A stretch of DNA of 64,000 bases, from the NCBI RefSeq assembly GCF_003052265.1, contig NZ_QANS01000005.1, forward strand, positions 1 to 64,000, given 5' to 3'. Position numbers and translations under genes: made by a program. Of this stretch, positions 10,697 to 60,940 are shown piece after piece (position 1 is the first letter of the stretch; each line of letters begins with the position of its first letter). The notes beneath the pieces were generated by a model. That model searched no databases. It was given only the letters and a program-made list of their open reading frames with translations, and had not been told where the DNA came from. Origin of the DNA: Stenotrophobium rhamnosiphilum (lineage in GTDB: Bacteria; Pseudomonadota; Gammaproteobacteria; Nevskiales; Nevskiaceae).

Positions 10697-11521
10697 CTAC
10701 ACCGCCAAGCTATAGCCACCATTGACCGGATATGTTTGTCCCGTAATCCAACTGGCCGCATCGGAGCATAGGAATAGCGCCATGCTCGCAACATCGTCTG
10801 GCTTGCCGAAGCGGCGAATAATGTAGCGTTCGACATGCGCTTTAGCTTTGTCACTTTCCAGAAACGCTGTGCGCTCGGGCTCAGGCAGCACCGGCTCCAG
10901 CGTCGACAGTGAAATGCAGTTGGCGGTAATGCCATGGCGACCCGTTTCACGCGCCAGTGAACGCATGAAACCAGCAGCGCCCGCTTTAGCTGCTGCGTAA
11001 ACAGCGAGTCGCGCTTCGCCAACGCGACCCGCGTCAGAAACAATCGTCACAACACGACCACGCTGATGCTGAACCATAACGGGCAACGCTGCATGACAGC
11101 AGTTCATGACGCCTTGCAGATTGGTACGAAAGTAACGATCCCAGTCGCTCGGTGCGGTTTCCCAAAACGGCGGCATGGGTCGCATCGTCACGTTGGGACC
11201 AGCGTTGCCCGCATTGTTAACGAGCAAGGTGATGGGCCCGAGTTCGCTGGCACGCGCCATTGCTGCATGCACGGCATCGTGATCGCCAACATCAGCCGGA
11301 ACGGCCAGCGCAGAAACACCCAGCGCTCTAATTTCAGCCGCGACCAATTCAGCTTTTAGTGGATCAAAATCATTGACGGCAACGCCGCCTGCACCGTTTT
11401 TTGCGAAGGCCAGTGCGATGGCGCGACCAGCGCCTTGCCCAGCACCACTGACAAAAGCGATCTGACCGCCCAAGTCGAGCAGGTCCTGACGGTCTTCGGG
11501 ATGCGTCTCATGGCCTGCCAT
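10697..11521 (-). CDS. Short-chain dehydrogenase/reductase (SDR)
   Basis: A 274-residue SDR with NAD(P) motif VSGAGQGAGRAIAL, NNAG, catalytic YAAAK and C-terminal WITGQTYPVNGGYSLAV. It is the distal gene of the long minus-strand run that starts with the ferredoxin at 16888, and lies 44 bp after the amidohydrolase gene. Likely a hydroxyl dehydrogenase or ketoreductase for a pathway intermediate; substrate not predictable. Confidence 0.86.
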   Translation of the reverse strand: MAGHETHPEDRQDLLDLGGQIAFVSGAGQGAGRAIALAFAKNGAGGVAVNDFDPLKAELVAAEIRALGVSALAVPADVGDHDAVHAAMARASELGPITLLVNNAGNAGPNVTMRPMPPFWETAPSDWDRYFRTNLQGVMNCCHAALPVMVQHQRGRVVTIVSDAGRVGEARLAVYAAAKAGAAGFMRSLARETGRHGITANCISLSTLEPVLPEPERTAFLESDKAKAHVERYIIRRFGKPDDVASMALFLCSDAASWITGQTYPVNGGYSLAV

Positions 11522-11565
11522 GTGTCGAAGGGCAACGCGTGCCTGAGCACACGTTGCCCGGACCT

Positions 11566-12879
11566 TTAGGCTGCCTTCGAGTGGTGCGAGAACATCTTCA
11601 TCAAGTCGCCCGAAGTTACCGGACGCTCCACTTCACCTTCTGCCAGCGGCTTGGCACCGCCAGAAGATTTCGGCGTGACATCGACGCCATCAGCTGCGGC
11701 CTTGGCACGCAACGCGCCAACCGTCAGGTCTTCGCGCTTGTTGTGCTTGAACATATCGAAGTTGAAGAACTTCATGGCGTTGAGGTGCGTGATCTTGTCG
11801 ATCTGCTTATCGGTCAAGTGCTGCACGGTCTTGAACAGATACTCCGGCACTTCAGGCCACAGCGAATCTGAATGCGGGTAATCGCATTCGTAAGACACCA
11901 TGTCTTCATTCAGCGCATCGAGATTCTTCAGGCCGAAGGCATCGTCAATGAAGCAATTCAAGAAATGCTTGGCGAAGATTTCGCTAGGCTTGGTGTCGCC
12001 GAACGTTGAGTGTGTCCAGAACTTGTGACGTGAGTGGCTGAAGTCAGCGCGCTCAAGGAAATAAGGAATCCAGCCGATGCCGCCTTCTGACAGTGCGATT
12101 CGCAACTGCGGATAACGGTGCAGAGCTTCGAGGTTGAGCCAATCGGCAGCACCCGTAGCAATCGACATCGGCATCGTCGTGATCCACGCTTCAATCGGCG
12201 TTTCCATCGACGCATGCGGTGCCGGGTTGCCTGCACCGATGTGCAAGCAAATCTTCATATCGTTTTCGACAATCGCCTGCCACATCGGCTCCCAATAAGC
12301 ATTGTGAATGCTCGGCAGACCCTGCACGGTTGGGTTCTCGTTGAGAGAAACTGCAGTGCAACCCTTCTTGGTCAGACGTTTGATCTCTTCAACCGTCGCC
12401 TTCATGTCCCAAGTCGGCAACAGCGCGCAAGGGATGAAACGACCAGGGTGCGAGCCGCACCATTCATCAACATGCCAATCGTTGTAACCGCGCATGTGAA
12501 TCAGCGACAAATTCTTGTCTGGCACTTTGTGGAAACGGCCGCCGTCAAAACCGGGGAAGCTGCCGAAATTGAGCGAGGCAGCGATACCGTTGACATTCAT
12601 GTCATCGATACGTGCATCTTTGTCGTAGCAACCCTTGCGCAGTTGTTCGAAGGAAGTCGGCTCCATGCCGTACTCTTCCATCGGGCGACCCACCACGGCG
12701 TTGAGGCCAACCGATGGCATCTTCAGGCCCTGGTATTCCCAGAAAGTCGTGCCGTTGTCAGCAACCTTCAACGTCGGCGCGCTTGCGAGCTCAGCACCGG
12801 TGAGGTGCTGCTGATACATATCTGGTGGTTCGCTGATGTGGTCATCGACACTAATCAGCACCATGTCGTTCATCTTCAT
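11566..12879 (-). CDS. Amidohydrolase-family metal-dependent hydrolase (COG2159-like)
   Basis: A 437-residue TIM-barrel protein. The N-terminal metal motif VDDHISEPPDMY replaces the usual D-x-H. Further metal or active-site positions are seen in CLHIGAG and YECDYPHSDSLWP. This branch includes decarboxylases and C-C hydrolases (gamma-resorcylate and related decarboxylases) as well as true hydrolases, so a ring or beta-keto acid cleavage is as likely as amide hydrolysis. Strong ribosome site GAGGAGTAAGG before the start. It sits between the thiolase-like gene (79 bp) and an SDR in the P450 operon. Confidence 0.8.
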   Translation of the reverse strand: MKMNDMVLISVDDHISEPPDMYQQHLTGAELASAPTLKVADNGTTFWEYQGLKMPSVGLNAVVGRPMEEYGMEPTSFEQLRKGCYDKDARIDDMNVNGIAASLNFGSFPGFDGGRFHKVPDKNLSLIHMRGYNDWHVDEWCGSHPGRFIPCALLPTWDMKATVEEIKRLTKKGCTAVSLNENPTVQGLPSIHNAYWEPMWQAIVENDMKICLHIGAGNPAPHASMETPIEAWITTMPMSIATGAADWLNLEALHRYPQLRIALSEGGIGWIPYFLERADFSHSRHKFWTHSTFGDTKPSEIFAKHFLNCFIDDAFGLKNLDALNEDMVSYECDYPHSDSLWPEVPEYLFKTVQHLTDKQIDKITHLNAMKFFNFDMFKHNKREDLTVGALRAKAAADGVDVTPKSSGGAKPLAEGEVERPVTSGDLMKMFSHHSKAA

Positions 12880-12958
12880 AAGCCTTACTCCTCGCTATTC
12901 AAATCGTGACTCTGAGAGCCGCGTTATTTCGAAGCCCGCTCGATATGAGCGGAGTTAA

Positions 12959-14119
12959 TTAATCTCGTGCCAGCAACAATGCAGTTGCCAAGGGTCCGCC
13001 GCCGGAAGTACTGACCGCGACGCGTGGATCACCCGGAATCTGACGCGCGCCGCCCTTGCCTCTCAGCTGCACAACAGCTTCGTGTGCAAAACCGAAGCCG
13101 TGCAATCGACCCGCGCCAATTTGTCCACCAAAGGTATTGAGTGGCAGCTCACCATCCAATGCGATGCGCTTGCCGCCTTCGATGAAGCGACCGCCTTCAC
13201 CTAACTCGCAGAAACCGAGCGCTTCAATCCAAGCCAGCGCTTGGAAGCTGAAGCCGTCGTACAACTGTGCGGTGTCGACATCAGCAGGTTTGTAATCCGT
13301 ACGCTTCCACAGATCAGCACCTGTTGGATAACAAGCCAACTCATCGGCTTGATCCCAGCTATGGCGCTCAACGGTGCCTGCCATTGCAGCAATGCGAATT
13401 GGTGTGCACTTCACTTCATCAAGCGCGTCGCCTGCTGAAACGATAACTACGGTTGATGCATCAGTGAAACGATCGCAGTCGTACAAGCACAGTGGTGAAG
13501 AAATCATTCGCGCTGACATGTACTCATCCATCGTCAGCGGTTCGCGCACAAGCGCACGAGGATTCAACGCTGAGTGAGCACGCGCTGTCAGTGCAATCTG
13601 TGCGAGCTGCTCACGCTTAAGGCCATAGCGCTTCACATGGAGCATCGCGTACTGCGCAGTCCAGGTAACTGCAGAGATCGCATTGAATGGTGCAAACCAT
13701 TGTGAGGAGCCGTCCACGCGATCACGCTGTGGCCGTGGATATTCGTCTGGCCGCGCCAGCGCAGCTGCTTCATAAACGGTGCGGAAACAAATCACATGAC
13801 GGGCTTGTCCTGCACGAACAGCAGCCGCAGCCGCTACTACAGCGCCAAGCTGCGATGAGATCTCACCACCACCGGCGTACCAAGTGGCGCGAATGCCCAA
13901 GGCATCAATCAATTCATCTGCGCCGACAGGCGAGAAGCCGAGATAAGCAGGAATACGACCGGGATAGGTGGAGACTCCATCGATCTGACCGATGGTCAAA
14001 CCTGCTTCGTCCAGCGCTTCGCGCACGGCATCAAGCGTCAACAACAAAGGCGAGCGAGTCAGCCTGGTGCCGATCTCGGACTGCCCCACGCCGCTGATAT
14101 AGGCTTCGTTGGCGGACAT
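12959..14119 (-). CDS. Thiolase-like protein (SCP-x/Ltp2 type) lacking the usual nucleophilic Cys
   Basis: A 386-residue thiolase-fold protein starting AYISGVGQSEIGTR. Where thiolases carry the acylated Cys, residues 81-85 read YAGGG, so the nucleophile is absent. YDGFSFQALAWIEALGFCE and NTFGGQIGAGRLHGFG are kept in the C-terminal half. It is followed upstream on the strand by a DUF35 protein with a one-base overlap (TGATG). This pairing is the hallmark of Ltp2-type retro-aldolases that cleave steroid side-chain beta-hydroxyacyl-CoA esters, and of other non-condensing thiolase relatives. Inference: a C-C lyase acting on a CoA ester together with the DUF35 partner. An ordinary acyltransferase is unlikely without the Cys. 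Confidence 0.8.
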   Translation of the reverse strand: MSANEAYISGVGQSEIGTRLTRSPLLLTLDAVREALDEAGLTIGQIDGVSTYPGRIPAYLGFSPVGADELIDALGIRATWYAGGGEISSQLGAVVAAAAAVRAGQARHVICFRTVYEAAALARPDEYPRPQRDRVDGSSQWFAPFNAISAVTWTAQYAMLHVKRYGLKREQLAQIALTARAHSALNPRALVREPLTMDEYMSARMISSPLCLYDCDRFTDASTVVIVSAGDALDEVKCTPIRIAAMAGTVERHSWDQADELACYPTGADLWKRTDYKPADVDTAQLYDGFSFQALAWIEALGFCELGEGGRFIEGGKRIALDGELPLNTFGGQIGAGRLHGFGFAHEAVVQLRGKGGARQIPGDPRVAVSTSGGGPLATALLLARD

Positions 14120-14523
14120 CAGTTGATCTTCTCAAAGAGCGGGATGAACACATCATCCTGCTGCAGAAACTTCACGCGAACCTTATCGCCGATATCCACA
14201 GAATCAACTGGGCAATCGACGATATTGGTCGTCAACAACACGCCGGGTGCGCCATCAATCGCAACACGCGCAATCACGAAAGGCACTTCCATCGTTGGAG
14301 ACCACTTCTGATAGTTGATCGTGTACGAATACACAACGCCGGTTCCTGCCACGGCTTCTGGCTTAACGTTTTCAGATAAACACTTTCTGCAAACAGGGCG
14401 CGGTGGGTGAATGAAGGTCTTGCAGTCCTGACAACGCATCAGCCGCAGTTGTCCCTCTGCCCCGCCCGTCCAGAAGGCACGGTTGTCAGCATCAAGTTTC
14501 GGCAATGTGCGTGTGGCTGCCAT
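14119..14523 (-). CDS. DUF35 / OB-fold Zn-ribbon protein, partner of the thiolase-like enzyme
   Basis: A 134-residue protein with an N-terminal helix, a rubredoxin-like Zn ribbon (Cys31, Cys34, Cys45, Cys48) and a C-terminal OB-fold. DUF35 proteins form complexes with thiolase-like enzymes and bind the acyl-CoA. It overlaps the thiolase-like gene by one base, supporting an obligate complex. It follows the P450 gene after 7 bp. Confidence 0.88.
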   Translation of the reverse strand: MAATRTLPKLDADNRAFWTGGAEGQLRLMRCQDCKTFIHPPRPVCRKCLSENVKPEAVAGTGVVYSYTINYQKWSPTMEVPFVIARVAIDGAPGVLLTTNIVDCPVDSVDIGDKVRVKFLQQDDVFIPLFEKIN

Positions 14524-14530
14524 GTCTTAA

Positions 14531-15787
14531 TTAATTCCAGCGCAACCAAACCGCATCGGGACCGACCACATGACCGCCGTGATAAGTCACAGGCTTGTCC
14601 GGGTCGAGACGGAATTCAGGAACACGGGCCAGCAATTCTTCATAAACAATCTGCAGCTCAAGGCGCGCAAGGTGCGAGCCGAGGCAGCGATGAGGACCAA
14701 CACCGAACGCAATGTGAACACTGTTCTGGCGCTGAAGATCGTAACGCTCTGCTTCAGGATATTCCGAAGAATCAAGATCTGCCGCAGGCAGGAACAACAT
14801 CACGCGGTCATTCGTCTTCATCTCCACACCTTGGAAGTTCAGGTCTTTGGCGATGCGACGAAGCGGCACGGTGAAGGTATAGCGGCGCAGTAATTCTTCT
14901 GACGCGCCATGGATCTTTTCTGGATTTGCACGCAGTTCGCGCTGCAAGTCCGGATTCTTGGCTAGATGCAGAACGCCGTGACTGATGCCGTTTACAACCG
15001 TATCGAGTCCGGCGGTGAACAACACTACACAGTAATTTTCCAAATCTGCCAGCGTTGTAGGTTTGCCGTTAATCTCGGACTGCCACAGCATGCTGATCAA
15101 ATCGTCCTGAGGATTTTCCTTACGCTCGAGAACGGTCTCGCGCATGATCGAAGTCAGCTTGAGCATACGAGCCACGATCGCACGCGGATCGTGATTCTGG
15201 TTGCCTTCCATATGTTCTTTAACCAGCGTGCGATATTCCTGCTGACGTTCTAGCGGCAAGCCGAACATCTTCAAGAAAATCTGCACCGGCATGGGCTCAG
15301 CAACTTCATCAACAAAGTTGCCGCCACCCTTGGCTTTCATCTTCTCAATCAGATCAACCGCCAACTCGCGGATGCTCTTCTGCAAGCCCAGCATTGCCTT
15401 AGGCGAAAACGCGCGCTGCAAGGGCATGCGATATGCGGTGTGATCAGGCGGATCAATCGTGATTGGCAATGGCTGCGGAATATGCGGCGAGCCCGGAGGC
15501 ATCTTCGCCATCATTGCCTTGATCATCGCTTGCGGAACGATCTCGCTGGAGAAACCTTCGGTATCGCGTGAAGCATGAAAGTTTGCAGAGTGAGTCATCA
15601 GCATCCAATGGCCGCCATTGCGCGGTGTCCAGAAGATGGGCGGCGCATTCTTGACCAGATCAAGAATGCGCTTGTGCGGATCAGCCACATACGCTGCATC
15701 ACCAAACATGTCGAAATCGTACGTTACGGCATCCGTCACATGGGCCGGGCGCTGGGCAACGGGACTGTTTGTTGAAACATCGTTCAT
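14531..15787 (-). CDS. Cytochrome P450
   Basis: A 418-residue soluble bacterial P450. The heme motif FGVGPHRCLGSHLAR puts the thiolate ligand at Cys368. The I-helix oxygen-activation motif is FTAGLDT, the K-helix ExxR is EELLRR, and DPPDHTAYR marks the C-helix region. No signal peptide or membrane anchor. The 3Fe-4S ferredoxin two genes upstream is the likely electron donor; no ferredoxin reductase is in the window. Likely role: hydroxylation of an unactivated carbon at the start of side-chain or ring oxidation, possibly terminal oxidation to the acid as in CYP125-type enzymes, but the CYP family cannot be assigned by eye. Confidence 0.93.
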   Translation of the reverse strand: MNDVSTNSPVAQRPAHVTDAVTYDFDMFGDAAYVADPHKRILDLVKNAPPIFWTPRNGGHWMLMTHSANFHASRDTEGFSSEIVPQAMIKAMMAKMPPGSPHIPQPLPITIDPPDHTAYRMPLQRAFSPKAMLGLQKSIRELAVDLIEKMKAKGGGNFVDEVAEPMPVQIFLKMFGLPLERQQEYRTLVKEHMEGNQNHDPRAIVARMLKLTSIMRETVLERKENPQDDLISMLWQSEINGKPTTLADLENYCVVLFTAGLDTVVNGISHGVLHLAKNPDLQRELRANPEKIHGASEELLRRYTFTVPLRRIAKDLNFQGVEMKTNDRVMLFLPAADLDSSEYPEAERYDLQRQNSVHIAFGVGPHRCLGSHLARLELQIVYEELLARVPEFRLDPDKPVTYHGGHVVGPDAVWLRWN

Positions 15788-15816
15788 AAGGAATTCCCTA
15801 AATGCGTCTTATATTT

Positions 15817-16632
15817 TTACGAAGCGTTTGACATCAAGGTGCGCAGATCAATCTGACCCGTTGCAACGCCACCAAGGAAGCCGCCATCAACAGCGAGTGC
15901 AACACCATTGATGTAGCTCGCCTTCGGACTGTTGAGGAACAGCAAAGGACCGGCTTGTTCATCTGGCGTCGAGCGGCGATTGATCGGCTGCATGGCCGCG
16001 TCGAGCACTGAAGCCTTGGTGGCTTGTTCGAAGTGGCTCATCATCGGCGTCTGGGTAGGGCCAGGCATCGTGCAGTTGATGCGGATGCCGCGCTTGATCA
16101 AGCGCGAGGACATCAGCATCGTCCAAACAATGATCGCTTCTTTAGAGAATGCATAACCTTCAGCAACGGTTTCTGCGTTGTCCTGAACCCATTTCACAAC
16201 GCCTTCGTAGGTGTCGATCTGCATGAGCTGCATGTGGGTCGGAATGCGACGGCTCCAACCCAAACCACCGTTGGAAGAAATGCTGACGATCGAACCACCT
16301 TCCGACATCAAGGGCAGAACCTGTTCCGTGACGCGGCGTGTGCCAGCAAAGTTCACTTTCATCACATCCAACGCGGGTGAAGTCTGTGGCAGGCCAGCGC
16401 AGTTGAACAGCGCATCGACCTTGCCGCCAATCTTGGCAACGGCAGCGTCGATGGCAGATGGATCACGCAAGTCCACTTGTGTGAAGGAAGCCAACGCAAG
16501 CTTGCTTTCTTTGTAGTCCATGCCATGAACTTCGGCACCCTGCTCTAGCAGCATGCGGGCAGTCGCCTCGCCCATGCCTGAAAAGCAGCCGCTCACGATT
16601 ACGCGCTTATTTTTATATCCTAAAAAGTCCAC
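15817..16632 (-). CDS. SDR similar to 3-alpha-hydroxysteroid dehydrogenase/carbonyl reductase
   Basis: A 271-residue SDR. The glycine motif is VSGCFSGMGEATARM, NCAG replaces NNAG, and the catalytic pair is in YAFSKEA. The long insert between SISSNGG and the Tyr (residues about 140-170) and the short N-terminal half are typical of the HsdA-type 3-alpha-hydroxysteroid dehydrogenase/carbonyl reductase branch. It is co-transcribed with the ferredoxin and P450, so it may oxidise the alcohol made by the P450 or act on a ring hydroxyl. The steroid label is by resemblance only. Confidence 0.83.
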   Translation of the reverse strand: MDFLGYKNKRVIVSGCFSGMGEATARMLLEQGAEVHGMDYKESKLALASFTQVDLRDPSAIDAAVAKIGGKVDALFNCAGLPQTSPALDVMKVNFAGTRRVTEQVLPLMSEGGSIVSISSNGGLGWSRRIPTHMQLMQIDTYEGVVKWVQDNAETVAEGYAFSKEAIIVWTMLMSSRLIKRGIRINCTMPGPTQTPMMSHFEQATKASVLDAAMQPINRRSTPDEQAGPLLFLNSPKASYINGVALAVDGGFLGGVATGQIDLRTLMSNAS

Positions 16633-18790: not shown

Positions 18791-20269
18791 ATGAATGAAC
18801 TCAGCCAATTAACTAAGAATGCCTTGGCGCGAGCGCCATCACGGCCTGCGATTGAATTCGAGGGACGCTGGTTCAGTTGGGGCGAACTACGACATATCTC
18901 TGATCGCATTCGCGCTCTCTTGAACGACTGCCGCATCCCTGCCGATACAGCCGTCACTTTAATTCCGCGCAATCGTCCATCTGCCATCGCCGCCCTACTC
19001 GGACTCATTGCACAAAGTCGCAACGTGCGAATGATCTATGCCTTTCAGTCCGACAATGCGATGGCTCGCGATATCGAGCGGCTCAATCCTGCCGCTGTCA
19101 TTGGCGCAGCAGAAGACTTTTCAGGGCCTGTCATCACTCTTCTAAAAGCACGCGGCATCGTTGGCATTGTGCTCACCGAGATGGACGCCACGCTATTGCA
19201 CGGACCGGCGCGATCAGAGAGTCACTCGACACCTAGCGCTCATGCTCCCGCTCAAATTGAAATTTTGACCAGCGGAACGACGGGGCCTCCCAAACAATTT
19301 GCCATCAGCTATGCACTGATTGCCAAACACTACCTCGGAACTCAGGCACTCACGAACGATGACGACGAGAAGTTCTTAGCTGCAACGCCGACACTTCTGT
19401 TCTTCCCTTTGGGAAACATCTCTGGAATTTATTCCAGCTTGCCCGTTTTACTCAGAGGACAACGTGCCGTATTGCTAGAGCGCTTCAGCGTTGCCGGATG
19501 GCATGACCACTTGCTGCGCTATCGTCCGGAAATCAGTGGACTGCCACCTGCTGGCGTACAGATGATTCTGGACGCAGATATTCCGCCTGCGGATCTGGCC
19601 TGCATCACGCGCATGGGAACAGGCGCAGCGCCACTAGACCCAACCGTTCATCGCGCATTTGAAGAACGTTACGGCATTCCTATTTTGCTTTCCTATGGCG
19701 CCACTGAATTTGGCGGCCCCGTCACTGCAATGACGCTCGACCTGCATCGCGTCTGGGGACAGAAAAAACTTGGCAGTGTCGGACGCGCGCTACCCGGCGC
19801 TCAGTTACGCATTGTTGATCCCGATAGCGGAACCGTTCTGCCGGCGGGACAAGAGGGCTTGCTGGAAGTAATTTCTCCTCGCATCGGGCCAGATTGGATT
19901 CGCACCTCTGACATTGCACTGATCGACGAAGACGGATTCATGTTCCACCGCGGTCGTGCCGATGGCGCGATCGTGCGTGGTGGCTTCAAACTACTGCCAG
20001 AAGCCATTGAGCGTGCATTGCTCGAACACATTGCGGTTTCTGCGGCAGCTGTTATTGGAGTTGTGGATCAACGTCTCGGACAGGTTCCTGCGGCAGCGAT
20101 TCAGTTCAAGCCTGATGTCACAAGCCCAACCATTGCTGAACTCGAAGCGCACTTACGCGATCGCGTCTACGCAACGCACATCCCAGTTCAATGGCGTTTT
20201 GTGAAGGAACTCCCCAGAACGCCGACGCTAAAAGTCGACAGGCGAGCTCTAAAAAACTTGTTCGACTAA
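18791..20269 (+). CDS. Acyl-CoA synthetase (AMP-dependent ligase)
   Basis: A 492-residue member of the ANL superfamily. The P-loop reads ILTSGTTGPPKQF, the A5 motif SYGATEFGGP, the hinge region SDIALIDEDGFMFHRGRADG and the C-terminal catalytic Lys lies in PTLKVDRRAL. It activates a carboxylic acid to its CoA ester through an acyl-adenylate. One of four ligases in the window, it is divergent from an SDR with operator copy 4 between. Its last 21 bp overlap the convergent kinase-like gene. Substrate not assignable. Confidence 0.87.
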   Translation: MNELSQLTKNALARAPSRPAIEFEGRWFSWGELRHISDRIRALLNDCRIPADTAVTLIPRNRPSAIAALLGLIAQSRNVRMIYAFQSDNAMARDIERLNPAAVIGAAEDFSGPVITLLKARGIVGIVLTEMDATLLHGPARSESHSTPSAHAPAQIEILTSGTTGPPKQFAISYALIAKHYLGTQALTNDDDEKFLAATPTLLFFPLGNISGIYSSLPVLLRGQRAVLLERFSVAGWHDHLLRYRPEISGLPPAGVQMILDADIPPADLACITRMGTGAAPLDPTVHRAFEERYGIPILLSYGATEFGGPVTAMTLDLHRVWGQKKLGSVGRALPGAQLRIVDPDSGTVLPAGQEGLLEVISPRIGPDWIRTSDIALIDEDGFMFHRGRADGAIVRGGFKLLPEAIERALLEHIAVSAAAVIGVVDQRLGQVPAAAIQFKPDVTSPTIAELEAHLRDRVYATHIPVQWRFVKELPRTPTLKVDRRALKNLFD

Positions 20270-21544
20270 GTTGTCGAGCAGCTTTCCAAAGTCCCGCTTC
20301 TGCCACAGATTAAGAACATTGCTCATCATCTGAAGCTGCACTCGCGCAGTTTCGTTCGATCTAAATTTCGGATCGAAACGATCTTTGATCGAAGCGAGAT
20401 CAGGAATCTGTTTCTCGATTAACGCTGGCGCATCCATCAGCCAAGCCAAACCCATCAAGGCCACGAATAACAGTAGATGTGTTTTGAGTTCTTCAACATC
20501 TAGTGTCGGCCCGCCGCAGCGATGGAATTCATCTGCGAAGTGCACTAACAGCTCCTCCAGATGCCGATCCCATAGCTCAACTTCTGCTGCGCTCAAAGCA
20601 CCGAAGAGTGCGTGGGCAACGCTCATTTGCCCGACGCGACCCCAGTCAATTAAACCGCAATGAAGTTCACCCTGCCCGTCGCGCCAGAACCATGCGTTAT
20701 CAACATTGGCATTCCAATGGCAAAGCGCGATGAACTCTGGATTGCTGTAGAGAAACCGCTTTATTGTGAGTTCGTGTTCAATGAAACGTGGAATGTCTTT
20801 CTTCAACTGCTCGATGAAGGTCGGCGTGATGACATTCGCAGGAAAGAGTTGCGGATATTTTGTGGAGAATTCTGCATAGCGAGCGACGCGATTCAGCAAT
20901 TGCTGTTCGGTGTACCGGATTCGGTCATTGGCAGACGCCGCAGCCGCATCAAACGGAAACAATGCCGAAACGTTGCTAGCAAGACGACCCGCCTTATGAG
21001 TGCCGGCAAGCCCGGCAACAGCTTTGAGTAACGCCTTGTAATGCGCCAAGGGATCGGTCATTTCTGCATCTAGGCACTTTTCGCATAAAGGCTCGATATT
21101 GCCTTTACCAAATGCAATACGTTCAGTGATCAAAATGCCGGTACCAGACTCGCTGTTGTAATCTGCATATAGACAGCTCGGTACTGACAATGGGAAACCT
21201 TCAGTACGAGACAACAACGCCAAGCGCACTTCTGCATCCAACTGATTCTTCGCACGATCACGAATCACATCGTCGAAATCACGCGAGAACTTAACGAATA
21301 ACTGCGTGGGCAACTCAACATCCGGCTTAGCGTACTCAAGCGAGAGAAACCGTTTCCGCCCTGTACTGCCACCGTGACATTCTTCAAATTGAGTAATTCG
21401 CACGACCTGATTATCCGAAGCCAGCGCCCCTGAAGCACGAAACGCTTTAGTGAGATATTCGACACCGCCTTCACGCAAGGCTTCGCTGCACGCAGGAATT
21501 AAAATGCCCAGTGAGTCACCTTGAACCCACTGGGCATTGCTCAT
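20249..21544 (-). CDS. Phosphotransferase-fold (aminoglycoside/ecdysteroid kinase-like) protein
   Basis: About 431 residues related to the APH/EcKinase-like fold seen in many lipid-degrading gene clusters. The catalytic loop, normally H-G-D-x-x-x-x-N, reads CHWNANVDN (His276, Asn278, Asn283), so the catalytic Asp position is Asn; the metal Asp is kept in LIDWGR (Asp300). It may be a weak kinase, a pseudokinase or a binding protein. Start taken at 21544, ten bases after the preceding SDR stop; an in-frame ATG at 21631 lies inside that SDR. Gene pair SDR-kinase on the minus strand, with operator copy 5 upstream. Confidence 0.68.
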   Translation of the reverse strand: MSNAQWVQGDSLGILIPACSEALREGGVEYLTKAFRASGALASDNQVVRITQFEECHGGSTGRKRFLSLEYAKPDVELPTQLFVKFSRDFDDVIRDRAKNQLDAEVRLALLSRTEGFPLSVPSCLYADYNSESGTGILITERIAFGKGNIEPLCEKCLDAEMTDPLAHYKALLKAVAGLAGTHKAGRLASNVSALFPFDAAAASANDRIRYTEQQLLNRVARYAEFSTKYPQLFPANVITPTFIEQLKKDIPRFIEHELTIKRFLYSNPEFIALCHWNANVDNAWFWRDGQGELHCGLIDWGRVGQMSVAHALFGALSAAEVELWDRHLEELLVHFADEFHRCGGPTLDVEELKTHLLLFVALMGLAWLMDAPALIEKQIPDLASIKDRFDPKFRSNETARVQLQMMSNVLNLWQKRDFGKLLDNLVEQVF

Positions 21545-21554
21545 CTTTTTTGAC

Positions 21555-22334
21555 TCAGCGCGGCTGCATTCTGATTGCGCCATCAAGACGTAGCGTCTCA
21601 CCGTTGAGATATCCGTTGCGAATGACTTCAAGAGTCAAACTAGCGTATTCGTCAGCATGGCCAAGACGGGGCGGAAACGGAACCATCTTACCCAAGGCAT
21701 CAAGCATTTCTGGCGTCGCACGCGCCATTGCTGGCGTTGCAAAGATGCCTGGCTGAATCGTGTTGACACGAATACCTTCACGAGAGAGATCGCGAGCAAT
21801 CGTCAACGTCATACCGACAATCGCAGCCTTCGCCGCTGAGTAGGCAGCTTGGCCCATCTGCCCTTCAGTCGCAGCAGCAGAAGCGGTGTTAACCAGAACG
21901 CCACGCTCACCATTCAGAGGCTCCAGCGTCATCATGCCCGCCGCTGCGCGCGTGATGCAACGGAAAGTACCCACCGTGTTGAGCTTCAGCACCCATTCGA
22001 ATTTATCGCTGGGGAAAATATTGATTTCGCCTGTCGTCTTGTCACGACGCGCCGTTGGAATCGCATTGCCACCACCCGCACAACAGATCAGCGCACGCTC
22101 CTGCCCCTGCGCAGCACGCGCTTTTGCGAACGCTGCATCAACGCTTTCATCGGACAGCACATCGCACTGACAAAAGATTGCGCCGGTTTCAGCCGCCATC
22201 TTTTCACCGATCTCTTGATTGAGATCAAAGATCGCAACCTTGGCTCCAGCCGCTCTCAGTGCTTTGACTGTGGCAAGTCCCAGACCCGAAGCGCCACCAG
22301 TAACCACCGCAGCAAGTGAGGAGTCGATTTTCAT
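21555..22334 (-). CDS. SDR, 3-hydroxyacyl-CoA dehydrogenase type II-like
   Basis: A 259-residue SDR: VTGGASGLGLATVKAL, AIFDLNQE (Asp after strand 2, NAD-dependent), CCAGGG, and catalytic AAYSAAKAA. The extended middle region (TTGEINIFPSDKFEWVLKLN) and the C-terminal PPRLGHADEYASLTLEVI are features of the HSD10/FabG-like type II 3-hydroxyacyl-CoA dehydrogenases. Likely the third step of beta-oxidation for the pathway's acyl-CoA. It leads the pair with the kinase-like gene. Confidence 0.85.
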   Translation of the reverse strand: MKIDSSLAAVVTGGASGLGLATVKALRAAGAKVAIFDLNQEIGEKMAAETGAIFCQCDVLSDESVDAAFAKARAAQGQERALICCAGGGNAIPTARRDKTTGEINIFPSDKFEWVLKLNTVGTFRCITRAAAGMMTLEPLNGERGVLVNTASAAATEGQMGQAAYSAAKAAIVGMTLTIARDLSREGIRVNTIQPGIFATPAMARATPEMLDALGKMVPFPPRLGHADEYASLTLEVIRNGYLNGETLRLDGAIRMQPR

Positions 22335-29394: not shown

Positions 29395-30918
29395 TTACTT
29401 CATCGTTGGCATTGAAAACTCAGCGCGTTGTTCGGTTTCACGTGGCCAACGTTGGGTGACGGCCTTCTGGCGCGTATAGAAACGCACGCCCTCACGGCCA
29501 TAGACGTGATGATCGCCAAACAGCGAATTACGCCAGCCACCGAAACTGTGGAAGGCCATTGGCACGGGCAACGGCACATTTACACCCACCATGCCGACTT
29601 CAATGCCCGATGTGAATGCGCGCGCAGCGTTACCGCTACGGGTGAAGATGGCCGTACCGTTCGCGAACGGATGGGCGTTGATCAGTTTTATTGCGGCGTC
29701 CAAATCAGGGACGCGCATGATGCCTAATACAGGCCCGAAGATTTCTTCCTTGTAAATCTTCATGTCGGTGCTGACTTTGTCGAACAGCGAACCGCCGAGG
29801 AAGAAACCGCCGGGCGTACCCGCATAACCGGGGCGACCATCCAAAAGTAACTTAGCGCCTTCGCTCACGCCAGACTCGATGTAATCGCAAACTCGTGAAC
29901 GATGCTCGCCGGTAATCAGCGGGCCCATTTCCGTGGCGTTATCGGTAGGCAGCCCCACTTTCAACGCCTTCACTCTCGGAGCCAGCTTCGCAATCAACTG
30001 ATCCGCACATTCATCACCCACTGCAACAGCAATCGAGATCGCCATGCAGCGCTCGCCGGCCGAGCCGTAAGCGGCGCCAAGCAAAGCTTCAACAACATCA
30101 TCAATGTCCGCGTCGGGCATGATCACCATGTGATTCTTTGCGCCGCCCAGCGCTTGCACGCGCTTGCCATTCAATGTGCCTTCGCGATGAACGTGACGCG
30201 CAACTGGCGTCGAGCCTACAAAACTGACTGCAGAAATATCTGGGTGATGAAGCAGACCATCAACCGCTTCGCGATCGCCATGCAAAACGTTAAATACGCC
30301 ATCGGGCAATCCCGCTTCCTTCAGCAACTTGGCGAGAAGGATTGCAGCGGATGGATCGCGCTCAGACGGTTTCAGGACAAATGTGTTGCCGCATGCAAGC
30401 GCCACTGGAATCATCCACAGCGGAACCATGACTGGAAAATTAAACGGTGTAATACCCGCTACGACGCCCAAAGGCTGACGCAGGCTGAACGCATCGACGC
30501 CCGTGCCGACGTTTTCGCTGTGCTCGCCTTTGAGCAAATCAGGAATGCCGCAGGCGAACTCGACCACTTCCAAACCACGAACGACTTCACCACGAGCATC
30601 GCTCAGCGTTTTGCCGTGCTCGCTAGAAATAATCGCAGCCAGTTCGTCTGTGTGTGCTTCCAGCAACTGACGGAACTTGAACATGACGCGCGCACGGCGC
30701 AGTGGAGGTGTAGCCGCCCAAGCTGGCAAGGCTGCCTTAGCATTAGCGACGCAGTCATCAAGTTCTTGGCTCGAAGCAAAGGGAACACGCGCCGACACAG
30801 CACCCGTGCTGGGGTTATAAACATCGCCCACACGCGACAGCGAACCGACGACGGTTTTACCGCCAACCCAATGAGGAATCGTGGCGAGTGCTTGCTGAGC
30901 TTGTGCGGATGCAGACAT
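29395..30918 (-). CDS. mmsA: CoA-acylating methylmalonate-semialdehyde dehydrogenase
   Basis: A 507-residue CoA-dependent aldehyde dehydrogenase. [39 protein letters not shown] (Gly-Ala-Lys instead of the Glu motif of hydrolytic enzymes) and GERCMAIS with the nucleophilic Cys are diagnostic for MmsA. It converts methylmalonate semialdehyde to propionyl-CoA, or malonate semialdehyde to acetyl-CoA, so a branched or propionyl-yielding fragment is likely to emerge from the pathway. Start at 30918 chosen; the upstream reading frame to 31131 contains the operator and is not plausible protein. Confidence 0.92.
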
Positions 30919-31042
30919 GGGAGACCTTCGATTTTTATTGAGCAGTAATTGTGAGAAATTGGGACAGACGACCATGCAGATAGCACAAGCCGATTCGGTG
31001 AGCCCCGACGATCCGCCTAAGCTAAATCCGCAGCCACTATAA

Positions 31043-31063
31043 GTCAACAGTGTTGTTGACTGA
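31043..31063. promoter_or_regulatory. Cluster operator, copy 7 (perfect dyad)
   Basis: GTCAACA-GTGT-TGTTGAC, a perfect 7-4-7 palindrome, between mmsA (start 30918, -) and the SDR (start 31119, +). The ATTAT extension is replaced by TGAAT here. Confidence 0.82.
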
Positions 31064-31118
31064 ATAAGACACACATGGGATCGTATTGCGCACTTAAAAG
31101 AATGATCGGAAATCACTT

Positions 31119-32042
31119 GTGAATTGGACAACCAGCGACATCCCCGACCTCAGCGGCAAAGTGGCACTAGTCACCGGCGGCAATAGTGGCATTGGCTACT
31201 GGACCTGCTTGCATCTGGCACGAATGGGCGCCCATGTTGTCCTTGCTTGCCGCTCCATGCCACGAGCGCAGTCTGCGGTGGCTGATTTGCTAAAAGCCGT
31301 ACCCAACGGTCGGTTTGAAATTCTGCCGCTCGATCTGAGTGATCTAGCCTCCGTGCGTACTGCTGCTGCCACCTTCCGCTCGAAGCATGATCGGCTGGAT
31401 ATGCTTTGTAATAACGCTGGCATTGCACTATCACCGATGGAGCGGACCAAAGACGGATTCGAATCACAACTCGCCGCCAACTTTCTTGGACACTTCGCAC
31501 TCACTGGATTGCTGATTGATGTCATCCGCGCAACGCCAAACAGTCGCGTCGCACATGTGGGCAGCCTTGCACATCGTCTCGGCAAGCTTGATTTTGAAGA
31601 TCCGAATTTCCAGCGCCGTAAATACTCACCGTTGAGCGCTTACGGTCAAAGCAAGCTCTCCAATGTCATTTTCATGCTGGAACTTCAGCGACGCTTTGAG
31701 CGCTCAAATATCAATTCGATCAGCGTCGGCGCTCACCCCGGCATGTCGGGCACTAACATCGGAGCAGCGCTCGTTGAAAATGCTTCGCCGCTTAAGAAAA
31801 GAATAAATGCATGGATTGAAGCGAAAATTCTCAACTCTCCAGAACGTGCAGCGGCCCCAACGCTTCTTGCAGTGACGCGACCTGGAGTCACAGGTGGAAG
31901 TTACTTTGGTCCTAGCGGATTTATGGAAATCAAAGGATCGCCCACTCCTGCCCGTCTTGCTGCTGCTTCACAGAACGAGTCAGATGCAAGTCGCTTGTGG
32001 GCACTCGCTGAACAGTTAACTGGCGTTAGTTTTCTAAACTGA
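31119..32042 (+). CDS. SDR, retinol-dehydrogenase-like
   Basis: A 307-residue SDR with a GTG start (no in-frame ATG upstream). [21 protein letters not shown], and catalytic YGQSKLSN. The long C-terminal region [18 protein letters not shown] is typical of retinol dehydrogenase/WW-domain oxidoreductase-like SDRs acting on lipophilic alcohols. It is a paralogue of the SDR at 58773, which shares the YGPSGF...G and RLWAxxE segments. Convergent with the DUF2889-like gene, overlapping it by 9 bp. Confidence 0.86.
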
Positions 32043-32762
32043 TCCTTGCGATTGAAGCGGCTGTTGCGTGCCGTCACTAAAGTCACGCACGTCAACAATG
32101 CGTTGCGCCTCAACAGCGCGCGCGGGCTGGAATGTGTAGCAGTTCGCGGGCATGCGACTAGCGTCCGACTGCTTCTCCATTGGGATCATCCGTCCGTGCG
32201 CAAGCACAGCACCCCAACGCAATAGTCTTGCTGGCTCCTGCAACGCAGGATCAAGACTTTCGATCCAAGGATTCAACGTCCAAACAGTGAGTCCAGCCAT
32301 TTCACTTGGCTCGACGATGTTGCCATCCAACTCTTTCCAAGCAAGAACGGCGACACCGTTGCGCCGCAGTTCAGCACTACGACGCCCTTCGATGGGATCA
32401 GAAACAAGAATGTCGTAGACCAGCACTTCTTTATTTAATGCATGCGCGGCACACAGCAAGGCCAGATCATAAAGATGCGTGCAGTTGGTCTTCTTGTCTG
32501 CGCGTTTGGCAAACGCAAGTAGCGGCACACCGGTAAAGGTCTGTTCAATCTGTGCAGGCGCACCCGGGCACGTCGTCCACGGCGCACGCGTAAGGTCTGC
32601 ATGAATGCGCGTTGCAACAATCCCGTCGTGATGAACCGTGACACTCATGCAGTGATAGTCATCTTCCACTTGACTGAGCACGCACTCAGGTGTCGGCGTA
32701 ATGCGAAAACGCCTCCGAAATCCGGGTAATTGATCGACAGAATCAACCTGCATCGCCTTCAT
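32034..32762 (-). CDS. DUF2889-like protein
   Basis: About 242 residues. The central part has HHDGIVATRIHADLTRAPW and CTHLYDLALLCAAHAL, which resemble DUF2889, a family repeatedly found in aromatic and steroid catabolic clusters but without a proven activity. No signal peptide or membrane segment. Start at 32762 preferred; nine bases on, 32753 is an alternative ATG. Divergent from the EthD-like gene with operator copy 8 between them. Confidence 0.65.
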   Translation of the reverse strand: MKAMQVDSVDQLPGFRRRFRITPTPECVLSQVEDDYHCMSVTVHHDGIVATRIHADLTRAPWTTCPGAPAQIEQTFTGVPLLAFAKRADKKTNCTHLYDLALLCAAHALNKEVLVYDILVSDPIEGRRSAELRRNGVAVLAWKELDGNIVEPSEMAGLTVWTLNPWIESLDPALQEPARLLRWGAVLAHGRMIPMEKQSDASRMPANCYTFQPARAVEAQRIVDVRDFSDGTQQPLQSQGSV

Positions 32763-32838
32763 CCTCAATTCATCAACATGTCTACATCGGCAATAGCTTT
32801 GTCGCCACCAATTATTAGCGGTCTCGCACCTTGACTTA

Positions 32839-32859
32839 ATAGACAACGTTGATGATTAT
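32839..32859. promoter_or_regulatory. Cluster operator, copy 8, with -10-like TATAAT
   Basis: AGACAACGTTGATGATTATA: the right half is weakened but the ATTATA extension is intact. On the minus strand TATAATCATCAACGTTGTC faces the DUF2889-like gene; the other side faces the 32906-37556 operon. Confidence 0.65.
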
Positions 32860-32905
32860 AACTTCTTACTAATCTCGCGCCAAAAAAAGCATCAGCAGAC
32901 CAAGC

Positions 32906-33670
32906 ATGTCTCACTACACAACCATTCACCTGCATAACGTTCCTGCTGGCCGCGAGGCTGAATATGCAACGTGGTTTGACGGCCCTCATCGCGCTACGCT
33001 CGCCAATCTCAAAGTCTATAAAGCAGCTGAGCGCTATGAAGTAACGCCGCAGCAAATCATGCCGGACATTCCGCAGCCATGGCGTTATATAAGCGTTTAC
33101 GAATTTGAATCGCTGAGCCCTGCTGTCGACGTTCCTGCACTTGGCCCGTTGATCGCAGATGCACGTAAATCAGGGCTCATTGCTGACGATGAGACCGAGC
33201 GCCTTTATAGCTACCGCATGTTTGCGGATTGGAAAAACAGCCCCAATCGCCAGATGTCCGAGCCTCTGTCAGGCATCAGCATCATCCTTGCCAATTACGT
33301 ACCGGGCCGCAAAGACGAATACGAAACTTGGTACGAGAACATTCATAGCGTCGAAGTCATCAACGTGCCCGGCCATGTCGCGATGAAGCGTGGAGAGTTG
33401 TCGAAAATCCAGATTGATCCAAGCCACTACTGCCCGGGCGACCAGTTCGTGTTGTGCGCACAGCAAACGGAAGATCTGTTGTTCACGCTCAAGGACTTCA
33501 GCGCCCGCGCCCGTGGCGCCAGCCCGAGTGGCGTCGCCATGCTGCCGCGCTCCGCCGCCGCTTCTACCGCACGTACCGTTCACTACTTCAAAAAAATCAG
33601 TGGAACGACCTTCTGGAATAAAGGCATTGCCTACGCCGGAGATTTATCCGTGTATCCAGGCCAAAGCTGA
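32906..33670 (+). CDS. Tandem EthD-like / dimeric alpha-beta barrel protein
   Basis: A 254-residue protein built from two similar ferredoxin-like halves. Half one has LHNVPAGREAEYATWFDGPH (residues 9-28); half two has ANYVPGRKDEYETWYENIHS (about 129-148). Both look like EthD/Dabb-type units, small domains seen in monooxygenases, decarboxylases and lyases. No catalytic role can be assigned. It heads a four-gene plus-strand operon with an SDR, the second KstD-like protein and an aldehyde dehydrogenase. Confidence 0.6.
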   Translation: MSHYTTIHLHNVPAGREAEYATWFDGPHRATLANLKVYKAAERYEVTPQQIMPDIPQPWRYISVYEFESLSPAVDVPALGPLIADARKSGLIADDETERLYSYRMFADWKNSPNRQMSEPLSGISIILANYVPGRKDEYETWYENIHSVEVINVPGHVAMKRGELSKIQIDPSHYCPGDQFVLCAQQTEDLLFTLKDFSARARGASPSGVAMLPRSAAASTARTVHYFKKISGTTFWNKGIAYAGDLSVYPGQS

Positions 33671-33682
33671 TCGGAGCAAATC

Positions 33683-34420
33683 TTGTCAAAAGTTATTGTC
33701 ATCACTGGTGCAGGTGTGGGTCTTGGACGCGCGCTCGCACGACGATTCGCTAGCGAGGGCGATTCCGTCGTTCTTCTGGGGCGCACGCCTTCCAAGGTTG
33801 AAGTAGCAGCCGCCGAGATCGGAGCACAAGCCACAGCGATCGGCTGCGATGTGTCGTCACCCGATTCTGTTCGCGAAGCTTTTGCACAGATCGCCAAAAA
33901 ACATCCGCGCATCGACGTGCTGATCAATAACGCTGCAGTCTTCGAACCCTTCCTGATTGCCGAAGCCACTGACGATCAGATCGTCAACACCGTCAATACA
34001 AATCTGACTGGCGCAATGCTGTGCGTACGCTCTGCGATTCCGTTGATGGGTGCAGGCAGCCACATCATCAACGTCAGCAGCGAATCGGTTGGCATGCGCT
34101 TCCCTCACCTCGTCGCGTATCAAACCTCAAAGGCAGGTTTGGAACGTTTCTCCGAAGGCTTGCATCACGAACTGGAGCCCAATGGCATTCGCGTGACCAG
34201 TGTTCGCGCCGGGCAAATGTTTGAAGAAGGCAAAACCTGGGACGTTTCTCCGGAAGCGCGCATGTGCTTCGGCAAAGCCGCGATAGAAGCTGGCGTCAAT
34301 CTTCGCGAACGTCCGATCTCGCAGTTCACCTCAGTGACCAACGCCTTCCGCGCACTGATCGATATGCCACCTGACCTGCACACAATTCATATGTCGCTGT
34401 CAGCTCGGAAATCCAGCTAA
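33683..34420 (+). CDS. Short-chain dehydrogenase/reductase (SDR)
   Basis: A 245-residue SDR that starts with TTG at 33683, placed by CGGAG seven bases before it and by the N-terminus MSKVIVITGAGVGLG. NNAA replaces NNAG; catalytic AYQTSKAG present. The gap to the EthD-like gene is 12 bp and to the KstD-like gene 2 bp. Probable ring-alcohol or ketone redox enzyme that feeds or follows the flavoprotein. Confidence 0.84.
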   Translation: MSKVIVITGAGVGLGRALARRFASEGDSVVLLGRTPSKVEVAAAEIGAQATAIGCDVSSPDSVREAFAQIAKKHPRIDVLINNAAVFEPFLIAEATDDQIVNTVNTNLTGAMLCVRSAIPLMGAGSHIINVSSESVGMRFPHLVAYQTSKAGLERFSEGLHHELEPNGIRVTSVRAGQMFEEGKTWDVSPEARMCFGKAAIEAGVNLRERPISQFTSVTNAFRALIDMPPDLHTIHMSLSARKSS

Positions 34421-34422
34421 CC

Positions 34423-36075: not shown

Positions 36076-36089
36076 ACGAGGAGAATGAG

Positions 36090-44009: not shown

Positions 44010-45176
44010 TTATTTCTTCGGCAATTCGATCTCAGCCTTGGCCGTTGCCATCACCGTGCCGAGTTGATTGCTCATTTTGCAATCGACCTGCACGATCGAA
44101 CGTCCTTCTGCGTCGACGGATTTGTCGATCACCGTCGCATCCATGATGGTGATATCGCCAGAGAACGCAGGGCCGCGGTAAGCGCTATTGCAGTGGACAA
44201 CGCGACCCCACTCGCCTGCCCAACCAGCAAAGTAGTCGATGATCCATGCACCCATTGAAGCGCCATAACCGTAGGCACGAGGCATGCCGATAGTGCGTGC
44301 CCATTCTGGGAACAGGTGACCACGTGAAGGGCCGAAGTAAGCGCCGTCGGTGAGCTCAGGATTCTGACGCTCCATCACCGGATCATTTTCATGACCGGCC
44401 ATGTCCTTGGTGAAACCCAGCGCTTCCAGATCCAGATCGGTACGACGATGCATCGTGCCCCAGATCGTGAAGGCATACGCACGCCATTCAGTGGCGAAGC
44501 TGGCAATGCTGTGTGGCCCGAAGATGCGCGTTGGCAGCTTGTCGCCAACTTTGATGTCATCCCAATAACGCTTGCCATGACCGAGCGCATGCAAGGTTTT
44601 GACGTAATCGAATTTCTTTTCTTCCAGCTCAGCCAGTTGATCACGAGTCCAAACCGGATCATCCGTTCCTTTCAGCGAACCCATCTCGCGCGCTGCTTCT
44701 GCGAGGTAACGGATGCTGGTCGAACGTTGCGTCGCGATCTTCTCGTTCTTCTGGTTGTAGTACATGTTGTCGCCGCGCTGGAAACAAGTCGGGCCCGCAA
44801 ACTTGGTTTCCTTGACGACGTAATCAAACGGCACGCGCTCGTTGCGAATCAGATCACCAGAAAAAACGCGCGGGCCGTGGAACCACCACTCATCACCGCC
44901 GAAGATCAGATGTGAATTTGGAATCGCACCAACGCAGCAAGGCGCCGCGCCGTGACCGTCATCGGTCGCCACTGGAAAAGACTGTGGCGCAACAATACGT
45001 GCGTAACGGCTTTCTGCTGCGAAGTCATCGTCATAGTGCAAACGATTCGGGTAATGCATGCCCTGCACCCAGCGGCGGATATCACTACTCGCGACAACAT
45101 CTCGCGTTCGCGCAGGCTGCATTGGTTTGCCTAGGTATTGGTCGATGTCGGAACAGTCGAGAGTCTTGTCACTCAT
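44010..45176 (-). CDS. Double-hotdog MaoC/FAS1-like dehydratase (hydratase)
   Basis: A 388-residue two-domain protein. The N-terminal FAS1-type hotdog has HYPNRLHYDDDFAAESRYAR, the hydratase motif with its acid. The C-terminal MaoC-like hotdog begins near KVGDKLPTRIFGPHSIASFA. Adds water to an enoyl-CoA, as ChsH-type and other MaoC hydratases do. It is a paralogue of 59788-60918. Second gene of a pair with the SDR 27 bp upstream. Confidence 0.82.
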   Translation of the reverse strand: MSDKTLDCSDIDQYLGKPMQPARTRDVVASSDIRRWVQGMHYPNRLHYDDDFAAESRYARIVAPQSFPVATDDGHGAAPCCVGAIPNSHLIFGGDEWWFHGPRVFSGDLIRNERVPFDYVVKETKFAGPTCFQRGDNMYYNQKNEKIATQRSTSIRYLAEAAREMGSLKGTDDPVWTRDQLAELEEKKFDYVKTLHALGHGKRYWDDIKVGDKLPTRIFGPHSIASFATEWRAYAFTIWGTMHRRTDLDLEALGFTKDMAGHENDPVMERQNPELTDGAYFGPSRGHLFPEWARTIGMPRAYGYGASMGAWIIDYFAGWAGEWGRVVHCNSAYRGPAFSGDITIMDATVIDKSVDAEGRSIVQVDCKMSNQLGTVMATAKAEIELPKK

Positions 45177-60918: not shown

Positions 60919-60940
60919 GCCACTCTCCTTGAAATATTCG

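Follow-up and report, generated by a model that had tools for sequence, protein, structure and literature searches.

Ltp2 and Sal are the two retro-aldolases of the thiolase fold for which the literature that we searched holds both a structure and mutants. Ltp2 from Thermomonospora curvata, an aldolase for the C3 side chain of steroids, pairs with the DUF35 part of ChsH2 (6ok1), and Sal from Comamonas testosteroni, an aldolase for the C5 side chain of bile acids, pairs with that of Shy (9myr). DUF35 is described as a domain of a hydratase in both systems (PMC12329534, PMC12502768), and in Comamonas the domain is reported to be indispensable to the aldolase activity of Ltp2 (PMC12502768). Ltp2 is described as using Tyr294 of a YDHF motif as the base, His296 to shape the oxyanion hole and Tyr344 as the acid, the equivalent residues of Sal being Tyr302, Cys304 and Gln352 (PMC12329534). 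A further pair, Atf1/ChsH4 of the HBC sub-pathway in Mycolicibacterium neoaurum, has a stand-alone DUF35 protein (ChsH4, 138 residues) encoded next to the aldolase (PMC10398937). We compared this pair by its description; since Atf1 is reported to be 56% identical to Sal1 (PMC10398937), it probably belongs with Sal. Here we describe a gene pair in the first 64,000 nucleotides of contig NZ_QANS01000005.1 (assembly GCF_003052265.1) of Stenotrophobium rhamnosiphilum, a stretch that we call the window. The pair encodes a cysteine-less, Ltp2-like protein of the thiolase fold (P0001, 386 residues, 12959-14119, minus strand) and a stand-alone DUF35 partner (P0002, 134 residues, 14119-14523, minus strand).

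A retro-aldolase is the most likely function of this pair, given the lost nucleophilic cysteine, the retained aldolase tyrosine, the DUF35 partner and the place beside Ltp2 as its sister group. By analogy with the described systems, we lean towards reading the two proteins as one retro-aldolase for the 3-hydroxyacyl-coenzyme A (CoA) ester of a polycyclic acid, whose hydroxyl group an oxygenase may perhaps have set.

A cysteine-less relative of Ltp2 and its DUF35 partner

The two genes overlap by 1 nucleotide in the string TGATG, the lipid-transfer-protein (LTP)-like gene beginning inside the DUF35 stop codon. P0002 matched PF01796 and PF12172 above cut-off, and Pfam found no MaoC domain in its 134 residues; it is thus a separate protein, unlike the DUF35 of ChsH2, which is a domain of a MaoC hydratase. 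It carries a C4 zinc ribbon pattern, C31-x2-C34-x10-C45-x2-C48 (CxxC-x10-CxxC), as does the DUF35 partner in 6ok1, whose chain B is its best sequence match in the PDB (E 1.4e-19). The sole Pfam match of P0001 at E 0.001 was PF22691 (Thiolase_C_1), with no match to the N-terminal thiolase model at that threshold. Its nearest NCBIfam models were PRK07855, 'lipid-transfer protein' (222 bits), and PRK06158 (209 bits), both scoring far below their cut-offs (469 and 421, respectively).

The string YAGGG occupies residues 81-85 of P0001, at the position of the thiolase nucleophile, and residues 76-92 contain no cysteine. The string itself varies among family rows (YNGGF, HLGGG, HMGAM and others), while Trp80 and Glu86 are invariant in 44 aligned members. 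A cysteine falls within this segment in three of 37 clade rows (L113 and L115 at position 78, L122 at 82), and, these being few and at differing positions, the clade has no conserved cysteine there. We also considered a thiolase whose cysteine had been displaced, and rejected it: Cys111, Cys211 and Cys215, invariant in the 44 members, align with neither catalytic cysteine of thiolases, position 370 holds Ser, Ala, Cys or Val and is hence not essential, and the three cysteines within the segment stand in differing places. Nor does the protein fit a classical or SCP2-type thiolase, having no cysteine at the nucleophile position and Arg338 in place of the histidine of the GHP motif. An earlier note on this DNA had described the cysteine-less YAGGG site, the overlap with a DUF35 gene and the absence of a fused hydratase, all of which were borne out; a conserved nucleophilic cysteine nearby or a grouping with characterised thiolases would have spoken against it, and neither was found.

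Sequence, fold and tree all place Ltp2 nearest to P0001. Its best sequence match in the PDB was chain A of 6ok1, TcLtp2 (E 6.7e-42, 147 bits), followed by 4u4e, 7yvy and 9myr. A structure model of P0001 built from 44 family members (mean predicted local distance difference test score 88.1, predicted template modelling score 0.90) ranked 6ok1 first in Foldseek. VIA-align 2 gave Z 48.4 against 6ok1 (root-mean-square deviation 2.2, 362 aligned residues), with 4u4e (45.8), 6esq (45.0) and Sal (9myr, 44.4) next and classical thiolases at about 34. In a tree of 47 rows with the active-site trait columns masked, 38 rows (37 with YDGF and Arg, and one from Rhodococcus WAY2 with YDGI and Arg) formed one group with support of 100/99. 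This clade joined three Ltp2-type rows (6ok1, a gene of the same genome as the window and a Novosphingobium gene) at 99/89; Sal and 4u4e branched outside the two together. Several end branches are long (2.1 for Rhodococcus WAY2, 1.83 for Sal), which makes the exact placing of those rows unsure.

The 38 clade rows are a sample drawn from 20 of 80 genome-contig loci, three paralogues, 14 plasmid genes and the window gene. They come from Proteobacteria (Solimonas, Steroidobacter, a metagenome-assembled genome of Nevskia, Zhongshania, Novosphingobium, Massilia and Caulobacter) and from Actinomycetota (Rhodococcus, Streptomyces and Mycobacterium). The proteins of Solimonas fluminis (L018) are 86% (LTP) and 75% (DUF35) identical to those of the window. 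Class-wide searches of 369 genomes at thresholds of E 1e-70 and 1e-60 returned matches in the S. rhamnosiphilum genome alone.

Aligned to Ltp2, P0001 has Tyr287 (codon 13259-13261) for Tyr294, Gly289 (13253-13255) for His296 and Arg338 (13106-13108) for Tyr344, a position that aligns with the GHP histidine of thiolases. The base tyrosine thus sits in a YDxF motif as in Ltp2, followed by the same aspartate (Asp288), and the positions of His346 and Gln339 of Ltp2 are shared as His340 and Gln333. We examined these residues in 93 family rows, comprising P0001 and the 92 BLAST hits, out of 94, whose alignments exceeded 250 residues; in this set L001 is the same protein as P0001, and some genes were drawn from two collections. 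YDGF with Arg was found in 89 of the 93, one row ended before the arginine, and three differed: the Ltp2-type gene of the same genome (L002; YDAF, Tyr), an SCP2-type gene (L004; HDCF, His) and the second LTP of L063 (YDGY, Arg), which is 30% identical and may be a distant clade member. All 37 clade rows had Tyr287, Asp288, Gly289, Gln333 and Arg338; His340 was present in 36 of them. The Gly-Arg pair was absent from all 27 control LTP-like genes, taken from the S. rhamnosiphilum genome and its relatives (24 of 69 matches outside the clade plus three weaker ones from the same genome), which instead had Tyr/Ala/Tyr (17), Tyr/His/Tyr (4), Tyr/Ala/His (2), His/Cys/His (2), Tyr/Gly/Ala (1) and Tyr/Leu/Glu (1) at the three positions.

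Both residue changes (His296 to Gly, Tyr344 to Arg) and the separate clade rule out membership of Ltp2 proper. Sal shares the cysteine-less nucleophile position, the base tyrosine and the DUF35 partner, but requires Cys304, where P0001 has Gly289, and has Gln352; the DUF35 of Shy has a Cys3His1 zinc site, not a C4 pattern, and a fused MaoC domain. Membership of the Sal group is therefore ruled out as well, in line with the greater distance of Sal in the tree and in Z. The likeness to Ltp2-ChsH2 drawn in the earlier note consequently stands for the cysteine-less fold, the DUF35 partner and the nearest sequence and structure, whereas two of the three catalytic positions are changed and the family lies beside Ltp2, not within it.

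The S. rhamnosiphilum genome (3.96 Mb) contains three DUF35 genes, and an LTP-like gene adjoins each of them. One of the other two pairs is of the Ltp2 type (C16:488328-489728; L103 10125-11753): its LTP gene at C16:488595 matches PRK07855 above cut-off (502 bits), groups with Ltp2 in the tree and has YDAF and Tyr beside a stand-alone DUF35. Since the genome already holds this gene, the window pair is an additional enzyme. Atf1/ChsH4 and this Ltp2-type gene both resemble the window pair in joining an aldolase gene to a stand-alone DUF35, so that a separate DUF35 is not in itself unusual. The third DUF35/LTP-like pair lies in a gene run (L104 3576-15806) which we take, from gene order, to resemble a steroid C/D-ring cluster (IpdAB, EchA20, FadA6); NCBIfam did not confirm this.

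Gene neighbourhood and a candidate diiron oxygenase

From 16632 down to 10697, six minus-strand genes form one run, encoding a short-chain dehydrogenase/reductase (SDR), a cytochrome P450, the DUF35 protein, the LTP-like protein, a PF04909 protein and a second SDR. No ChsH1-like gene was found beside the pair, unlike in the Ltp2 system. The P450 (14531-15787, minus; PF00067) has CYP101J2 and P450cam as its nearest solved structures. The first SDR (15817-16632, minus) is nearest to the solved 3-alpha-hydroxysteroid dehydrogenase/carbonyl reductase 1fjh and is called 'coniferyl-alcohol dehydrogenase' by NCBIfam; the second, FabG/BadH-like, closes the run (10697-11521, minus). The operon with a P450 and an amidohydrolase proposed in the earlier note is thus upheld as far as the PF00067 and PF04909 genes run in the same direction, but the PF04909 'amidohydrolase' (11566-12879, minus) is more likely a nonheme diiron monooxygenase of the PtmU3/DitZ type.

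The best solved match of this PF04909 protein was DitZ (8uyr; E 2.3e-101 over 402 residues, 41% identical), followed by PtmU3 (E 1.8e-22). Both are of a TIM-barrel oxygenase type, and the window protein shares the diiron ligand positions of PtmU3 at D12, H14, H213, E265, D333 and H336 (D-x-H, H, E, D-x2-H). In a 56-row alignment, from which open reading frame (ORF) hits spanning fewer than 300 residues were left out, all six ligands were present in each of the 55 full rows (the window protein and PtmU3 included), the remaining row being incomplete. The ligands of AibH2 are given as D, H, H, E, D, H (PMC7782822), PtmU3 is described as hydroxylating C-5 of diterpenoid-CoA intermediates (PMC10127204), and PtmU3-like enzymes have been termed amidohydrolase-related dinuclear oxygenases (PMC10811679); the literature searched gave no description of the function of DitZ. 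The resemblance to DitZ and PtmU3 and the six ligands suggest that the window protein probably serves as an oxygenase for CoA esters. Window-type proteins with Asp at the seventh position made up 38 of the 56 rows, and 12 were of a second type with Thr there. This second type (DTDTHIT ... ETDFPHPTS) occurs near the clade mostly in sphingomonads (L099 13963-15240, L053 2744-4081 and L070 3652-4920, among others).

We found DUF35 directly upstream of the LTP gene and on the same strand in 75 of the 80 genome-contig loci, a pairing that is more than chance. Within the available flanks, many of which are cut by contig ends, 44 of these loci had a P450, 41 a PF04909 relative and 33 a crotonase. A stricter count was restricted to the 52 loci whose flanks both reach 5 kb or more and to a radius of 6 kb: DUF35 was present in 50, both oxygenases in 19, PF04909 alone in seven and the P450 alone in three. 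In four plasmid loci of Rhodococcus and Streptomyces (L101 8101-9762, L102 9467-11152, L121 5500-7155 and L122 5521-7134), DUF35 and LTP are fused, the LTP forming the C-terminal part of a protein of 537-561 residues annotated as OB-fold domain-containing. In L101 and L121 a single small gene separates the fusion from a PF04909 gene, and in L122 a P450 gene adjoins it.

Further support for a link between the LTP-like and diiron proteins comes from 61 genomes, those of S. rhamnosiphilum and 60 relatives; matching loci indicate that family f1 among these probably contains Solimonas- and Hydrocarboniphaga-like genomes. The LTP was present in seven of the 61 at a threshold of E 1e-50, and these seven have nine clade genes in total. 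An orthologue of the diiron enzyme was found at E 1e-50 in six of the seven and in none of the other 54 genomes; at a looser threshold the seventh (G032) yielded fragments, one of them at a contig end beside the LTP. The diiron enzyme adjoins a clade LTP or sits one gene from it in all seven (S. rhamnosiphilum included), lying in pieces at contig ends in G008, G032 and G048. Fisher's test of seven of seven versus none of 54 gave 2.3e-9, a result that reflects linkage and not independent gains, since it compares related genomes whose genes travel together. Plasmids gave a similar picture: a PF04909 relative was on the same replicon in at least 15 of the 18 best LTP records (14 among the 25 listed of 74 records, and one by annotation and ligands), near the LTP in some and far off in others.

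The neighbouring genes recur in relatives as a two-strand cassette, for example at L014, L016, L020, L023 and L031. One strand encodes an aldehyde dehydrogenase, a flavoprotein like 3-ketosteroid-delta1-dehydrogenase (KstD), an SDR and a protein without a family match; the other encodes an SDR, the P450, DUF35, LTP, a DUF2889 protein and the PF04909 protein. In the window this cassette is split in two (10697-16632 and 32034-37556). Its second part comprises a DUF2889-like gene (32034-32846, minus; Pfam score below cut-off), a gene for a 254-residue protein without a Pfam or NCBIfam match (32906-33670, plus), the SDR (33683-34420, plus), the KstD-like flavoprotein (34423-36075, plus; nearest to 7p18) and the aldehyde dehydrogenase (36090-37556, plus). 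The DUF2889-like gene stands beside the LTP gene in 42 of the relatives' loci compared, and the 254-residue protein is retained in the cassette of 27.

Three other features of the window were observed. A 460-residue ORF at 20249-21631 (minus) with a TTG start overlaps its neighbours, may be mis-started and had no match in Pfam, NCBIfam or PADLOC. A methylmalonate-semialdehyde dehydrogenase at 29395-31131 (minus; TIGR01722, above cut-off) has about 80 extra N-terminal residues if its TTG start is right. At 54351-58702 (minus), a resistance-nodulation-division efflux pump and a membrane-fusion protein are encoded beside catabolic genes.

Proposed reaction and alternatives

We infer that the substrate would be a 3-hydroxyacyl-CoA of a steroid- or terpenoid-type acid, which the pair would cleave to a carbonyl compound and a shortened acyl-CoA. 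Judging from Ltp2 and Sal, Tyr287 would take the proton of the beta-hydroxyl group. Arg338 might take over the roles of His296 and Tyr344 by stabilising the thioester enolate; HMG-CoA (3-hydroxy-3-methylglutaryl-CoA) lyase binds its enolate through an arginine in like manner. Reprotonation could come from Tyr287, water or His340. With a fixed Gly-Arg pair, this second half of catalysis would differ from that of Ltp2 and Sal. The gene order further suggests that the hydroxyl group may be set on the CoA ester by the PtmU3/DitZ-type diiron enzyme or the P450, in which case no dehydrogenase-hydratase pair would be needed. Taken together, the KstD-like protein, the SDR at 15817 and the relatives of the P450 suggest a 3-oxo polycyclic substrate. 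The earlier note had argued that the substrate may differ from that of the classical system; the separate DUF35 is by itself no mark of this, and the diiron oxygenase and P450 standing where Ltp2 and Sal systems have a hydratase are the stronger hint of a new route.

Carried further, the same data would make the clade a third class of thiolase-fold aldolases that depend on DUF35, with a Tyr/Gly/Arg site, forming the second half of a hydroxylate-then-cleave module. The diiron oxygenase or the P450 would set the beta-hydroxyl directly on a polycyclic acyl-CoA, and the aldolase would break a ring bond or a hindered C-C bond. We regard this extended proposal as speculative and rather unlikely, because in 23 of the 52 loci a 6-kb radius holds neither of the oxygenases, and hydratase-type genes are present elsewhere in the window and the genome. 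The same count of loci also weighs against the main reading of the pair, as do several further points. A crotonase-type hydratase lies within 6 kb in seven of the 52 loci, and the window itself has hydratase-like genes at 338-1309, 44010-45176 and 59788-61032. Two of the nine clade genes in the 61 genomes, both in G020 (C9 and C31, about 50% identical), lack an adjacent strong orthologue of the diiron enzyme. That the oxygenase link is unique to the clade was rejected, as weaker PF04909 relatives occur near other or Ltp2-type LTP genes, either within about 20 kb on the same contig (among them C16 of the S. rhamnosiphilum genome, G000, at about 8 kb; G001, G009, G010, G012, G014, G021, G023 and G024) or adjacent to them (G036, and twice in G020). 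Chemically, arginine is a poor general acid, and the site offers no sure residue for the acid step. Gly289 poses less of a difficulty with respect to Ltp2: the Ala at the His296 position of the genome's own Ltp2-type gene makes His296 a weak criterion, and as its loss is reported to cost Ltp2 only 14-fold, a glycine there is no bar to an aldolase. In Sal, however, replacing Cys304 with Ala, Ser or His is reported to abolish activity (PMC12329534 for both enzymes), so that Gly289 could also mean that aldolase activity has been lost.

The pair may also be an ordinary Ltp2-type retro-aldolase whose hydratase is encoded elsewhere, with the oxygenases serving other steps and the site changes tuning substrate fit. 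We consider this a substantial possibility: a separate hydratase alongside a stand-alone DUF35 has been proposed for Atf1/ChsH4 (PMC10398937), FAS1/MaoC-type hydratases and a crotonase-type protein are encoded within the window, the genome has seven MaoC matches (six above cut-off), and no oxygenase of either kind was near the pair in 23 of the 52 loci. Set against it are the DUF35 of the Ltp2 and Sal systems, which is part of the hydratase itself, and the scarcity of MaoC genes, found in three of the 80 loci anywhere in the available flank and within 6 kb in none of the 52, a count that small MaoC proteins could escape with the BLAST queries used. The replacement of both further Ltp2 active-site residues across Proteobacteria and Actinomycetota could instead point to another reaction of the thiolase fold (decarboxylation, retro-Claisen hydrolysis, acyl transfer or aldol condensation) using Tyr287 and Arg338, and solved DUF35-containing relatives include the PhlABC acyltransferase and a thiolase/HMG-CoA synthase complex; yet the nearest clade and fold are those of the aldolase Ltp2, the aldolase base is retained and no conserved cysteine is available for acyl transfer, which leaves such a reaction improbable. 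Least probable is a lipid carrier or scaffold without catalytic activity, which the name of the nearest NCBIfam model and the changed residues might suggest: a decayed enzyme would hardly keep its active-site positions so nearly invariant through the clade, and Ltp2, formerly so named, is an aldolase. A retro-aldolase for a polycyclic 3-hydroxyacyl-CoA is the reading that we retain.

A parallel may exist in diterpenoid degradation and biosynthesis. DitF of the abietane (dit) clusters is described as annotated sterol-carrier-like, in a cluster that has a P450, and insertion mutants are reported to lose growth on resin acids (PMC13063091); by description, the annotation and the P450 liken it to the window protein. 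The platensimycin literature searched, accessible in part, did not name an enzyme for the cleavage that follows the PtmU3 step. In the platensimycin pathway, the 5-hydroxyl group stands in the beta position to the carbon that bears the CoA, which allows a subsequent retro-aldol cleavage. If the hydroxylate-then-cleave module is real, it would offer a candidate for A-ring opening after PtmU3-like hydroxylation in diterpenoid pathways, and one O2 step would replace dehydrogenation and hydration. A limited literature search, covering few subscription papers and including Ltp2, Sal, Shy and Atf1, found neither a YDGF/Arg class nor an oxygenase paired with such an aldolase.

The clade can be recognised by its signature, YDGF with GxGRxHG, in proteins now mostly filed as 'thiolase family protein'. 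As a large uncharacterised sister group of Ltp2 with a different fixed residue pair, it suggests that evolution has adapted the thiolase fold to C-C cleavage on more than two occasions. Should the oxygenase link hold, these genes would also provide a directly testable route for cutting hindered steroid and terpenoid rings.

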